The notes below the pieces were generated by a model. That model was not told the origin of the DNA. It saw nothing but the letters and a program-made list of their open reading frames with translations, and did no database searches. From Pseudomonadota bacterium (lineage in GTDB: Bacteria; Pseudomonadota; Alphaproteobacteria; Caulobacterales; Caulobacteraceae), in the NCBI GenBank assembly GCA_963205005.1, contig CAUJHW010000150.1, positions 1-64,000 of the forward strand: a stretch of 64,000 nt of DNA, in the 5' to 3' direction. Shown here in pieces: positions 45,652-53,662 of the stretch. The first letter of the stretch is position 1; the number at the start of each line of letters is the position of its first letter. The position numbers were made by a program, and so were the translations under genes.

Positions 45652-46511
45652 TCGATCCGATGGACCGGGCCTTCATCTCCGCCCTGTGCCTGGCGCGGGC
45701 CGGGCTGAGGATCGATCCGGACAGGTCCTATCTGATCGAGGGCCGCCTGGCGTCGGTGGCCCGTCGCGAGGGGTTCGCCTCACCCGTGGACCTGATCCAG
45801 GCCCTGCGCGCCTCCGGGGACGAGCGCCTGGGCTGGGCGGCGGTCGAGGCCATGGCCATGCCGGAGACCCAGTTCTTCCGCGACCGCGCCGTGTTCGACC
45901 ACCTGGCCAACGAGGTTCTGCCGGCCCTGGCGAAGGCCCGCGAGGGCGAACCGGTCAGGATCTGGAGCGTCGCCTGCGGGACAGGCCAGGAAATCTACTC
46001 CCTGGCCATGATGCTGGCGGAAACGCCGGGCCTGGCCGACCGCGCTGAGCTGTTCGGCTCGGACCTGTCCGAGCGAAGCCTCGAAAAGGCCCAGGCGGGG
46101 CTCTACTCGCAGTTCGAAGTCCAGCGCGGACTGCCGGCGCGCGGGCTGGTCCGGCATTTCGAGAAGCGCGGCGAGGGGTATGCCCTGTCGCCCCGGATTC
46201 GCCAGATGGTCCGCTGGCGGCGTGTGAACCTGCTGGACGACCTGTCCCGCTTCGGACAGTTCGACCTGCTGCTCTGCCGCAATGTGCTGGGCGCCATGGC
46301 GCCGGAGGCCCAGGTCCGCGTTCGCGCCGCACTTGGTCGGGCGCTGGCGCCGGGCGGGCGGCTGGTGCTGGGCCTGAAGGATGGGGGCGAGCTGCTCACC
46401 AGCATCGCGCCGGAAATCGGCCTCTACGCCGCGCCTGGCGAAGGCGGCCCGATGAACGTCGAACCCCGCCGCATGGCGACGGGGTCCGGATCTATGGTCG
46501 TCGAACTCTAG
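45648..46511 (+). CDS. cheR: CheR-type protein-glutamate methyltransferase
   Basis: IWSVACGTGQEIYSLAMMLAETPG; MPETQFFRDRAVF; FDLLLCRNVL. Confidence 0.92.
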   Translation: MIDPMDRAFISALCLARAGLRIDPDRSYLIEGRLASVARREGFASPVDLIQALRASGDERLGWAAVEAMAMPETQFFRDRAVFDHLANEVLPALAKAREGEPVRIWSVACGTGQEIYSLAMMLAETPGLADRAELFGSDLSERSLEKAQAGLYSQFEVQRGLPARGLVRHFEKRGEGYALSPRIRQMVRWRRVNLLDDLSRFGQFDLLLCRNVLGAMAPEAQVRVRAALGRALAPGGRLVLGLKDGGELLTSIAPEIGLYAAPGEGGPMNVEPRRMATGSGSMVVEL

Positions 46512-46645
46512 TTCTTGGCGTCCTGGGCGGTGTCCTTGACGGCGCCGCCGACAGATTCCACGTCCTTGCCGGCGCCGGCGACGGTGTTGCAGGCCGCGAC
46601 AGCCAGGCTGGCGGTCAGGATGGCCATCAGAAATACATTGCGCAT
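46508..46645 (-). CDS. Entericidin EcnA/B-like small lipoprotein
   Basis: MRNVFLMAILTASLAVAACNTVAGAGKDVESVGGAVKDTAQDAKN. Confidence 0.85.
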   Translation of the reverse strand: MRNVFLMAILTASLAVAACNTVAGAGKDVESVGGAVKDTAQDAKN

Positions 46646-46688
46646 GGGGGGAAGCTCCCGGGGGGTTTCAAGAAACGATCCCCGCGGC

Positions 46689-46714
46689 AACGCTTCAGGC
46701 GGCCGCCTGGTTCC
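46689..46714 (-). promoter_or_regulatory. Candidate EcfG/SigT promoter for entericidin
   Basis: Minus strand GGAAC-N17-CGTT, 43 nt upstream of the start codon. Confidence 0.55.
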
Positions 46715-48410
46715 CTCGGAGGGCCGGAGCCTCCGCCGCGGACGGGGTCGGGAAGATCAGCCGTGCGGTGATCCCGCCATCGGCATTGCGGCCGAACTCG
46801 GTGCGGCCCCTGAGCTGCCGGGCGAAAGCGGTCATCAGGGTGCGGCCGACGCCGGACCTCGCCAGGTCTCCCTCGGTCGCCGCGCCGTCGTCGGAAATCT
46901 CCAGCTCGGCCTCGGCCCCCCGGACGGTGAAGTTGACCCGCAGGAATCCGCCGCGCCCTGCGAAAGCGTGCTTCTGGGCGTTGGTGATGGCTTCGACGGC
47001 GAACAGCGCCAGTGGCGCCAGCCGGTCAGGATCGATGACCAGCGGCTCGACCTTCAGCTCGGTGCGCACCGCATGGCCATGCATCATCTCGCCCGAGACC
47101 AGCTGGGCGGTCAGCTCTTCCAGGAACGGCCGCAGGTCCACCCGCTTGAGGTCCGGCCCCTGGTAGAGCGCACGGTAGATCAGGGCGAGCGCGGTGATCC
47201 GCTGGCGGGTGTCGCTCATCGCCGAGCGGGCCGCCGGATCGGTCAGCGAGCGCTGCTGCATGTTGAGCAGGCTGGAGATGACCTGGAGGTTGTTCTTCAC
47301 CCGGTGATGGATCTCGCGCATCAGCTCGTCCTTCTGGGCCAGGCTGTCGCGCAGGGAGGCGTCGCGGCCGACGATGGCGTCGGCCATGTCCTCCAGGGTT
47401 TCGGCGAGTTCGCGGATCTCCGGCGGCATCTGCTCGGCCTGGACCGGCCGGACGCTCAGCCGTCCTCGGGCGTACAGGGCGGCGATCCGCTGCAGATAGA
47501 CGATCCAGCGCACGACCACCCGCTCGGCCATCAGTGACACCGCCACCAGGGCCAGCAGGAAGGTGAGCAGCGGCAGGGCGATGCCGCTGAGGGGGTTCAG
47601 CCGCGCCCACGACAGCAGCCCGGGCGCCGGCGCCGACAGCACCACATAGACCTGGTCGCCCACCACCGGGGCCGCGGAGAAGATCCGCCGGCGACCCTGG
47701 GCGTCCTTTCCCGACCAGACCAGGGAGCCCTTGGCCTGAACCCTGGCCCGCCAGCCTTGCGGAAGTTCCGGGAAGGCGCTGGCGTCCGTGGTGGTCATGT
47801 AACGTCCGGACGTCCCGGTCAGGCCGACCTCGGCGCCGCGCGGCAGGGAGGGATCGTTGACCTTGGGCTGGAGGCTGGCGAGCGAGATGGCCGCCACCAC
47901 GGCGCCATCGAACGCCCCGTCAGGGCCGGCCGCGCGGGCCGCGGCGAGCACGGCGGGCTCAGGCGCGTAGCTGGTTCCGGAATCGCGCGTGAAGGTCAGC
48001 TCTCCGCCCTCCGCCAGCTGGCGGAACCAGGGACGGCTGGCCCGGTCAGGATCGGCGCGGACCGTGCGGGCCGAGCAGACGACCCGCCCCTGGCGATCGA
48101 ACCGGATCAGGTTGAGGTAGCCCGGGATGCGCTCGGTGACCTCGCTCAGCCTCTGGGCGCACTGATAGCCCACCGCCCCCGGCGCGAGGGTCTGCAGCAG
48201 GATGTCGGCGCTTTCCATCCGGGCGCGGGCGACGGCGGCGCTGCGTTCGGCGGCGAAGCCGAGGTTCTGGCGCAGCTCGCGCGCCTGATGCTGGAATCCG
48301 ATCGCGGCCTGCAGTGCGCCCAGCGCCAGCACAGGCAAGAGCGCAACGGCCAGGGCCGCGGTCAGGCGGACCCGGATCGTGCTCAGCGAACTCCAGGGCT
48401 TGCTCACCAC
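46695..48410 (-). CDS. phyK: Membrane HWE/HisKA_2 sensor histidine kinase, PhyK-like
   Basis: Periplasmic loop between two TMs, HAMP-like region, LMREIHHRVKNNLQVISSLLNMQ; adjacent to sigma factor-nepR-phyR. Confidence 0.82.
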   Translation of the reverse strand: MVSKPWSSLSTIRVRLTAALAVALLPVLALGALQAAIGFQHQARELRQNLGFAAERSAAVARARMESADILLQTLAPGAVGYQCAQRLSEVTERIPGYLNLIRFDRQGRVVCSARTVRADPDRASRPWFRQLAEGGELTFTRDSGTSYAPEPAVLAAARAAGPDGAFDGAVVAAISLASLQPKVNDPSLPRGAEVGLTGTSGRYMTTTDASAFPELPQGWRARVQAKGSLVWSGKDAQGRRRIFSAAPVVGDQVYVVLSAPAPGLLSWARLNPLSGIALPLLTFLLALVAVSLMAERVVVRWIVYLQRIAALYARGRLSVRPVQAEQMPPEIRELAETLEDMADAIVGRDASLRDSLAQKDELMREIHHRVKNNLQVISSLLNMQQRSLTDPAARSAMSDTRQRITALALIYRALYQGPDLKRVDLRPFLEELTAQLVSGEMMHGHAVRTELKVEPLVIDPDRLAPLALFAVEAITNAQKHAFAGRGGFLRVNFTVRGAEAELEISDDGAATEGDLARSGVGRTLMTAFARQLRGRTEFGRNADGGITARLIFPTPSAAEAPALRGNQAAA

Positions 48411-48425
48411 ATCAATACGTCCGCC

Positions 48426-49037
48426 TTACCGGACGAGGCTTAGACGCTCCGCGTCGGCGAGAATAGAACGCATCGCGTCCGAGGCGGAACCTCCGTCGCG
48501 GTCGTAGGCGCCGCTTTCAAGGATCACATGAAGCGCCCGGCGGGCGCGGCTGACGCGGCTCTTCACGGTGCCCACGGCGCAGCCGCAGATCTCGGCCGCT
48601 TCCTCATAGGCGAAGCCGCCGGCGCCGACGAGGATCAGGGCTTCCCGCTGCTCGGCCGGCAGCATGGCCAGGCCCAGGCGCAGTTCATCCAGCGCCACCG
48701 GCGCCTCGGGATCGTCCACGGCGACGAGGGTCCGTTCCGCCGCCTCCTGGTCGAGCTGGGTGGAACGCCATGACCGGCGCTTCTCGGAATAGAACTGGTT
48801 GCGAAGGATCATGAAGGTCCAGGCCTTCATGTTGGTGCCCATCTGGAAGCTGGCCCGCGCGTCCCAGGCCTTGACCATCGCGTCCTGCGCCAGGTCGTCG
48901 GCGGCGGTCGCGTCGCCGCACAGGGTGCGGGCGAAGGCGCGCAGGTGCGGGATCAGCTTGACCAGGTCGGTCTTGAACGCGTGGTCCTCGGCTTCGGAAC
49001 GGGGCGGACGCGGCTTTTTCTCAGGGGCGTCCATCAT
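48426..49037 (-). CDS. sigT: ECF sigma factor of the general stress response (EcfG/SigT)
   Basis: Sigma-70 regions 2 and 4 (DLAQDAMVKAWDARASF, AYEEAAEICGCAVGTVKSRVSRARRAL); next to nepR. Confidence 0.92.
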   Translation of the reverse strand: MMDAPEKKPRPPRSEAEDHAFKTDLVKLIPHLRAFARTLCGDATAADDLAQDAMVKAWDARASFQMGTNMKAWTFMILRNQFYSEKRRSWRSTQLDQEAAERTLVAVDDPEAPVALDELRLGLAMLPAEQREALILVGAGGFAYEEAAEICGCAVGTVKSRVSRARRALHVILESGAYDRDGGSASDAMRSILADAERLSLVR

Positions 49038-49282
49038 GACTTCTCCGGACCCCGCTCGTCGGCACGACGAAGAATTTCGAGGAATTCGTCCGGGACGTCC
49101 TCGCCCACCACCTCGTCGAACATCTGGCGCAGGCGTACGCCGATCGCCTGCTGGCGCAGGCGCGCCTCATCGAGCGCAGCGGAGGCCCGGCGGCTCTCCG
49201 GTAAGGGACGTTGTTCGATCATGTCGTCGGCGCCGCGCTCACGCGAGGACCGCCCCCTCTTGTGTTCCTTGTCGTCGCTCAA
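49034..49282 (-). CDS. nepR: Anti-sigma factor NepR
   Basis: IGVRLRQMFDEVVGEDVPDEFLEILRRAD, conserved NepR core; overlaps sigT start. Confidence 0.92.
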   Translation of the reverse strand: MSDDKEHKRGRSSRERGADDMIEQRPLPESRRASAALDEARLRQQAIGVRLRQMFDEVVGEDVPDEFLEILRRADERGPEKS

Positions 49283-49330
49283 CGCACGCGTCCCACCGAG
49301 GTTCCCAGGTCAGACGCGCAGGATGCGAAA

Positions 49331-49370
49331 AACCTTGACCGTTGGGAACCGGTTCCCTGCGATGGCGTTA
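49331..49370. promoter_or_regulatory. Divergent nepR/phyR promoter region with shared palindromic -35
   Basis: GGGAACCGGTTCCC (49344-49357); plus strand GGAAC-N16-CGTT to 49369, minus strand GGAAC-N17-GGTT ending at 49331. Confidence 0.7.
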
Positions 49371-49453
49371 GGTTTCACGATGGGGCCTGGTCGGGGGATC
49401 TCCCCCCCGCACCGGGCTGCCAGGTGAAAACCGCAACACGGGAGGGGTCACCC

Positions 49454-50254
49454 TTGAGTCTGCTAGCCCGACTGGCGCCGCATCTTCCCTATGTGCGCCG
49501 CTATGCGCGCGCCCTTACCGGCGACCAGACCACCGGCGACCACTACGTCCGGGTGGCCCTTGAGGCGCTTGCCGCCGGAGAGCGCACCCTTGAGGCCGGG
49601 CTCACCCCCAGGGTCGCGCTCTACCATGTGTTCCACGCCATCTGGTGCTCCACGGGCGCGCAGCTCGAACCCGGCCAGGATGACGAAGGCTACGCCGACG
49701 AGGCGACACGGCGGCTGATGCGCATCGCCCCGCGGTCGCGACAGGCCTTCCTGCTCACGGCCCTCGAGGGCTTCACTCCCTCCGAGGCCTCGCAGATCCT
49801 CGATACCGACTTCGCGGAGGTCGAGCAGCTGATCTCGGCCGCCCAGGCCGAGATTGACGCCGAACTGGCCACCGATGTCCTGATCATCGAGGACGAGCCG
49901 GTGATCGCCGCCGACATCGAGGCGCTGGTGACGGAGCTGGGTCATACGGTTGTGGACATCGCCGCCACGCGGTCGGAGGCTGTCGATGCGGTGAGCCGCA
50001 GGACCCCCGGACTCGTTCTGGCCGACATCCAGCTGGCCGACGGCTCTTCCGGCATCGACGCGGTGAAGGACATCCTGGCCCGCTACGACATCCCGGTGAT
50101 CTTCATCACGGCCTTCCCGGAACGGCTGCTGACGGGGGAACGGCCGGAGCCCACCTTCCTGATCACCAAGCCCTTCCAGCCGGAGACGGTGAAGGCGGCG
50201 ATCGGCCAGGCGCTGTTCTTCCATCCCCGAAATTCGAGCCGCCAGGCGGCCTGA
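49454..50254 (+). CDS. phyR: PhyR response regulator (sigma-like domain + receiver)
   Basis: N-terminal SLLARLAPHLPYVRRYARALTGDQTTGDHYVRVALEAL sigma mimic; C-terminal receiver VLIIEDEPVIAADIEALV...ADIQLADGSSGIDAV. TTG start after GGAGGGG. Confidence 0.95.
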   Translation: MSLLARLAPHLPYVRRYARALTGDQTTGDHYVRVALEALAAGERTLEAGLTPRVALYHVFHAIWCSTGAQLEPGQDDEGYADEATRRLMRIAPRSRQAFLLTALEGFTPSEASQILDTDFAEVEQLISAAQAEIDAELATDVLIIEDEPVIAADIEALVTELGHTVVDIAATRSEAVDAVSRRTPGLVLADIQLADGSSGIDAVKDILARYDIPVIFITAFPERLLTGERPEPTFLITKPFQPETVKAAIGQALFFHPRNSSRQAA

Positions 50255-50709: not shown

Positions 50710-50734
50710 GGAACACACGCTGGGGTCGCGGGTT
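50710..50734 (+). promoter_or_regulatory. Candidate EcfG/SigT promoter of the small RNA
   Basis: GGGAAC-N16-GGTT, ending about 7-10 nt before the first base of the predicted RNA stem. Confidence 0.55.
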
Positions 50735-50740
50735 CTATAT

Positions 50741-50855
50741 CTGCGGAGGCGGCGACGCCCCCCCGACTTGAGACCGGCGAACATGCCGGTCTGCCGTCTC
50801 CGCACCCCCCTCTTCTCGATGACACCTCTGGCGGGTCCCCGACCCGCCATTTTTT
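50741..50855 (+). ncRNA. gsrN: Candidate GsrN-like stress small RNA
   Basis: Intergenic and no plus-strand CDS; outer stem GCGGAGGCGG/CCGTCTCCGC, inner hairpin AGACCGGC-gaacat-GCCGGTCT, seven-C single-stranded loop, terminator GGCGGGTC-ccc-GACCCGCC-A-TTTTTT. Boundaries are estimates. Confidence 0.7.
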
Positions 50856-51318: not shown

Positions 51319-51343
51319 AACGCCTGCGGGCAGGCCCAGTTCC
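51319..51343 (-). promoter_or_regulatory. Candidate EcfG/SigT promoter for the glycine-zipper gene
   Basis: Minus strand GGAAC-N16-CGTT. Confidence 0.6.
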
Positions 51344-51346
51344 GCC

Positions 51347-51371
51347 GGAACCAAGGTCACGGTGCGCCGTT
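51347..51371 (+). promoter_or_regulatory. Candidate EcfG/SigT promoter for 51404-51745
   Basis: GGAAC-N16-CGTT. Confidence 0.6.
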
Positions 51372-53592: not shown

Positions 53593-53636
53593 GTCACAGT
53601 CTCCCAAAGCAGCCCCGTGCGGGCTTCTCTGACTGG

Positions 53637-53662
53637 AACGTCCCGGTGCGTCGTCGTGTTCC
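53637..53662 (-). promoter_or_regulatory. Candidate EcfG/SigT promoter for the DUF1328 gene
   Basis: Minus strand GGAAC-N17-CGTT. Confidence 0.55.

Follow-up and report, generated by a model that had tools for sequence, protein, structure and literature searches.

Opposed EcfG -35 half-sites form a conserved palindrome at the phyR promoter of Phenylobacterium and suggest an interlocked auxiliary nepR-sigT promoter

The intergenic region between nepR-sigT and phyR in our window (the whole stretch of 64,000 nucleotides that was analysed) carries a perfect 14-bp palindrome, GGGAACCGGTTCCC (49344-49357), in which two opposed EcfG (sigma-T) -35 half-sites surround a 2-bp core, and both half-sites are conserved in Phenylobacterium. 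The left half is the -35 of the phyR promoter, and the leftward half-site, together with a GTT at promoter spacing, is by its substitution counts under strong purifying selection in this genus. On sequence grounds, the right arm is best read as the -35 of an auxiliary sigma-T promoter that is directed leftward, here termed P2, and interlocked with the phyR promoter. We consider it reasonably probable that the region forms a three-promoter sigma-T switchboard, in which a divergent pair made up of a separate nepR-sigT promoter (P1) and the phyR promoter is joined by an auxiliary P2 locked into the latter.

The nepR-sigT/phyR locus and its promoters

The window encodes the core of the general stress response (GSR), with PhyR (sigma-like and receiver domains), NepR and EcfG encoded divergently, and domain matches bear out the gene identities given in the initial annotation. 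On the minus strand lie sigT/ecfG (48426-49037; Sigma70_r2 7e-16, Sigma70_r4_2 1e-15), the ECF sigma factor gene of the GSR, which adjoins nepR and phyR in nearly all collected loci, and the anti-sigma factor gene nepR (49034-49222; Pfam NepR 3.2e-14). The gene for the anti-anti-sigma response regulator PhyR (49454-50254, plus strand; PhyR_sigma2 3e-23, PhyR_sigma-like 1e-20, Response_reg 1e-13) begins with TTG. Downstream of sigT, a HisKA_2/HWE-type sensor kinase gene (46695-48410, minus strand; HisKA_2 6e-27, HWE_HK 7e-6; a dCache_1 match falls under its cut-off) is PhyK-like by position. One group of Phenylobacterium genomes, most of them on the smaller side (about 2.3-3.3 Mb, with several close to complete), gave no good PhyR match, and the GSR switch may have been lost there.

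The listed nepR start at TTG 49282 is probably wrong. ATG 49222, the likely start, is the better fit and is equivalent to that of C. crescentus NepR (PDB 3t0y match), a protein of 61 aa by the coordinates in PMC5869019. Codon-position differences of 0.30/0.26/0.34 from TTG 49282 to ATG 49222 indicate almost no periodicity, against 0.25/0.16/0.59 just 3' of the ATG. A long NepR isoform starting at TTG 49282 and made from P2 alone was considered and rejected, because P1 is predicted to start transcription 3' of that TTG and the upstream codons show almost no periodicity.

Two exact matches and one partial match to the EcfG promoter consensus, GGAAC-N16/17-CGTT (PMC7083833, PMC3892343), bear on this region, and for each the start was predicted by setting the first G of the -35 35 bases upstream, a rule that agrees with the Rfam start of GsrN in the window. 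The phyR promoter (49345-49369, plus strand) is an exact match, GGAAC (49345-49349)-N16-CGTT (49366-49369), with a predicted start at about 49380. P1 (49281-49305, minus strand), likewise exact, reads GGAAC (49305-49301)-N16-CGTT (49284-49281); from its predicted start at about 49270, the leader up to ATG 49222 would be about 48 nt long. Both lie 5' of GSR genes and are conserved, as expected of EcfG-dependent promoters. The candidate P2 (49331-49356, minus strand) reads GGAAC (49356-49352)-N17-GGTT (49334-49331), with a predicted start at about 49321. The palindrome, the rightward and the leftward elements were thus present as initially described. No housekeeping sigma-70 promoter reached the scan threshold between the -35s (49200-49480). 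The phyR leader (49374-49428, plus strand) contains a strong predicted hairpin, the whole stretch having a folding energy of -48.5 kcal/mol (z = -2.4).

Conservation in Phenylobacterium and the role of the right arm

The comparison drew on 213 phyR loci, many of them from metagenome-assembled genomes; 73 are distinct upstream regions from Phenylobacterium in which the phyR promoter could be recognised. Genus membership was taken from kinship labels and record titles. Changes were counted on a 72-tip FastTree phylogeny of PhyR and SigT proteins. All five -35 and all four -10 bases of the phyR promoter are invariant across the 73 loci, and GGAAC-NN-GTTCC is found in 70 of them. The right-arm columns changed 1, 0, 0, 1 and 0 times on the tree, against 23, 22, 24, 21, 16, 18, 19 and 12 times for columns +13 to +20 of the same phyR spacer. 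Similarly, the leftward GTT at N17 shows 0, 3 and 1 changes, compared with 18-33 in the P2 spacer. In 73 of 101 Phenylobacterium genomes the full pattern is found a single time, and the matches that were checked lie at the nepR/phyR locus, with the exception of one (G179), where nepR, sigT and phyR are each absent from the 3-kb context.

Such conservation could also be claimed for a dyad operator of a dimeric regulator, a phyR repressor overlapping the phyR -35, beside which the leftward promoter would be incidental. The perfect 14-bp two-fold symmetry would suit this explanation, as would the conservation of the flanking G and C (88% and 86%) and the two loci (L005 and L082) that keep the dyad with its right arm and have lost the leftward GTT. 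We nevertheless regard it as unlikely, as both arms are exact sigma-T -35s and the core varies (CG in 57 loci, AA in 8, TA in 3, GG and CA in 1 each); such freedom is expected of two -35s rather than of one continuous operator. Nor is the word enriched across the genome: the window has one copy of GGAACNNGTTCC (GGAAC-NN-GTTCC) where 0.05 are expected, and the genome has 6 sites, against about 4 estimated by chance. A role as a genome-wide operator was rejected given these 6 sites, the sole other exact copy of GGAACCGGTTCC in the genome lying inside a helicase-like ORF. The word itself is unremarkable, and the significance of the palindrome is in its position and conservation. An operator would also leave unexplained both the leftward GTT at N17 and the shifted forms with a 1-bp core, which have N16 in both directions.

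A second explanation, quite unlikely in our view, is that the right arm belongs functionally to the phyR promoter as an opposed sigma-T site, binding polymerase non-productively as a decoy and yielding no leftward transcripts. The right arm is better kept than the leftward GTT, and the P2 -10 is free to vary at its first base, which changed 21 times on the tree, whereas the C at the phyR promoter is invariant. However, across the genus the GTT varies hardly more than the right arm, the full consensus CGTT is present at the P2 -10 in 23 of the 73 loci, and in two loci with a degenerate P1 (L183 and L214) the palindrome is the only recognisable leftward EcfG promoter.

Returning to the right arm as a P2 -35, the candidate promoter has an exact GGAAC and a conserved GTT at N17, with a non-consensus G as first -10 base here and a variable base in relatives; P2 may be weak or unused. 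EcfG promoters often have a -10 other than CGTT, and TGTT is functional in vitro with the EcfG of Sphingopyxis (PMC7083833). In the window, the gsrN promoter (50710-50734) also reads GGTT by sequence. We asked whether the P2 -10 is stronger where P1 is displaced; the raw association was strong (14/14 vs 9/59) but disappeared once related loci were collapsed (p = 0.44), and the idea was dropped.

The P2 -10 (GGTT on the minus strand) overlaps a conserved block, AGGATGCGAAAAACC (49320-49334), in which the AAAAC columns changed 0, 1, 0, 3 and 1 times and the ATG columns 6, 5 and 3 times. A related block occurs in Caulobacter, where it has no palindrome beside it, so some of the conserved GTTTT tract may derive from an older element. 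Lying between the two -35s, the AnnATGnngAAAAC block (49320-49334) is a possible UP element, the P2 -10 itself or a regulator site, sigT being said to belong to the CtrA regulon (PMC3073932).

P1 and the palindrome in other lineages

The initial annotation had proposed that the palindrome holds the only -35 of nepR-sigT, forcing the two transcription units to compete for one docking site. The half-sites and spacings do exist as it described, yet it overlooked P1, a perfect leftward EcfG promoter, and its proposal is now very improbable. P1 is canonical, present in most Caulobacteraceae, and set with its -35 40 bp from the phyR -35 without overlap; across the family the two -35s are usually 37-44 bp apart. 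The full range of this distance is 37 to 154 bp, and the palindrome does not move with it. By its match to consensus, P1 is the better and ordinary nepR-sigT promoter compared with the leftward site of the palindrome. As a separate promoter, kept throughout the family and not overlapping the phyR -35, P1 frees nepR-sigT and phyR from any need to share a site, and the P1 and phyR promoters can probably both be occupied at once.

The palindrome is not a feature of Caulobacterales as a whole: almost every Caulobacter and Brevundimonas locus that has retained both promoters lacks it. This outcome, promoters conserved where the palindrome is not, was named as refuting in the initial annotation; it tells against the general form of the shared-site claim and does not touch the genus-level form. 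Among the 213 phyR loci, the palindrome is absent outside Phenylobacterium except for a 1-bp-core form in one unrelated genus. This form occurs in L170 (Phenylobacterium) and in L183 and L214 (the unrelated genus), with N16 kept in both directions. L183 and L214 fall elsewhere in the tree (support 0.95), and P1 in these two loci is degenerate by eye. In another five loci outside Phenylobacterium (L049, L053, L076, L189 and L191), a full-consensus leftward promoter is interlocked at another offset. We also considered the palindrome as a widespread alphaproteobacterial feature and rejected this, since a loose pattern with the core fixed at 1-2 bp was found in 43 of 385 genomes, similar to the reversed control, and tblastn placed neither nepR nor sigT nor phyR at any of the 30 loose-pattern loci returned.

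Lastly, a functionless symmetry inherited by chance from one ancestor would agree with the concentration in mostly one clade and with the occurrence of GTTCC in about 1.7% of shuffled spacers, but it recurs in another lineage and is already contradicted by the conservation contrast on the same tree (near-zero changes vs 12-24 in neighbouring columns), leaving it exceedingly improbable.

A model of interlocked promoters and its relation to known systems

In the three-promoter reading that we favour, the phyR promoter and P1 would act as an ordinary divergent, autoregulated GSR pair, and the P2 -35 would be the other half of the palindrome, inside the phyR spacer. From footprint sizes we infer that a polymerase on P2 would extend across the phyR -35 and, where P1 lies at the usual distance of 40 bp, across the P1 -35 as well, and that two holoenzymes on both palindrome half-sites at once are not plausible. 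Two occupancy states would therefore follow, either P1 plus phyR or P2 alone. With its weaker -10 (GGTT here), P2 would fire leftward, adding nepR-sigT mRNA and shutting phyR. We postulate that P2 could thereby work as a brake once levels of active sigma-T are high, giving more NepR and sigma-T and less PhyR; initiation at P2, mutual exclusion and the feedback role are all predictions of this model. At five E. coli bidirectional promoters, polymerases did not compete at basal activity and did so once one direction was strong (PMC12825309), and an effect at phyR would therefore be expected only under stress.

More tentatively, we suggest as a possibility that the stress sigma factor of Phenylobacterium, and independently that of at least one further genus, governs its own partner-switch genes by means of promoters that interlock and exclude one another, with P2 making nepR-sigT while blocking phyR and P1 as a feedback valve in cis. 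Partner switching in the GSR hinges on how PhyR, NepR and sigma-T are balanced. If the model is true, this balance would be hard-wired in overlapping promoters, a rare case of visible selection on steric competition between polymerases carrying the same sigma factor, and bacterial bidirectional promoters would be extended from shared -10s to abutting palindromic -35s and to an ECF sigma factor. The P2 model is testable by a few base changes.

Further EcfG-type sites were noted in the window. A GsrN sRNA homologue (50710-50849, plus strand; Rfam RF01529, CC3552, 4e-11) has an EcfG-type promoter, GGAAC-N16-GGTT, and lies 0.5 kb downstream of phyR; gsrN is likewise reported near phyR in other Caulobacteraceae (PMC5869019). 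The nepR leader (about 49240-49270, minus strand) is complementary to the C-rich loop of GsrN through a G-rich GGGGGCG found in 51 of 74 Phenylobacterium leaders, and a C. crescentus pull-down lists nepR with GGGGGGCG, where no regulation was found (PMC5869019). Pairing of GsrN with the phyR leader was rejected as a conserved feature, TCGGGGG being present in only 8 of 74 Phenylobacterium leaders. A self-symmetric EcfG-like site at 53635-53662 has GGAAC and GTT at promoter spacing on both strands, ending in TGTT on the plus and CGTT on the minus strand. Just 5' of a small entericidin-like lipoprotein gene (46508-46690, minus strand; Pfam 8e-7) lies GGAAC-N17-CGTT (46689-46714, minus strand), and judging from this sequence the gene is likely a further sigma-T target. 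Finally, a back-to-back pair (51319-51371) with CGTT on both sides lies between a glycine-rich lipoprotein-like gene (minus strand) and a small gene (plus strand); of 23 Phenylobacterium loci, 16 have the pair conserved close to phyR, and in one locus the gap is 18 bp.

Three known arrangements resemble the region in part. In alphaproteobacteria, nepR-ecfG and phyR are divergent and both under EcfG promoters (PMC4814048); P1 and the phyR promoter belong to this class, with the same gene order, divergence and GGAAC-N16/17-CGTT on both sides, and the palindromic interlocked P2 is the extra element here. Bidirectional promoters, described by Warman, Grainger and colleagues (PMC10268837, PMC12825309), share with the palindrome its symmetry and, as predicted here from footprint size, two mutually exclusive polymerase orientations. 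Their shared sigma-70 -10 element places the starts 7-25 bp apart, usually 18 (PMC10268837), whereas at the palindrome, which lacks such a symmetric -10, the -35s abut, the -10s lie outside, the predicted starts are about 59 bp apart and the sigma factor is of the ECF type. In the open-access literature, which covers only part of the field, we came across no account of ECF -35s that abut in a palindrome at a GSR locus; divergent autoregulated GSR promoters and bidirectional promoters are already known, and the candidate interlocked P2 would be the new element. The closest comparison within the window is the back-to-back EcfG pair (51343-51319, minus strand, and 51347-51371, plus strand), two divergent consensus promoters with almost touching -35s; in contrast to the palindrome, its half-sites face apart (GTTCC-gcc-GGAAC) across a 3-5 bp gap, and neither lies inside the spacer of the other.
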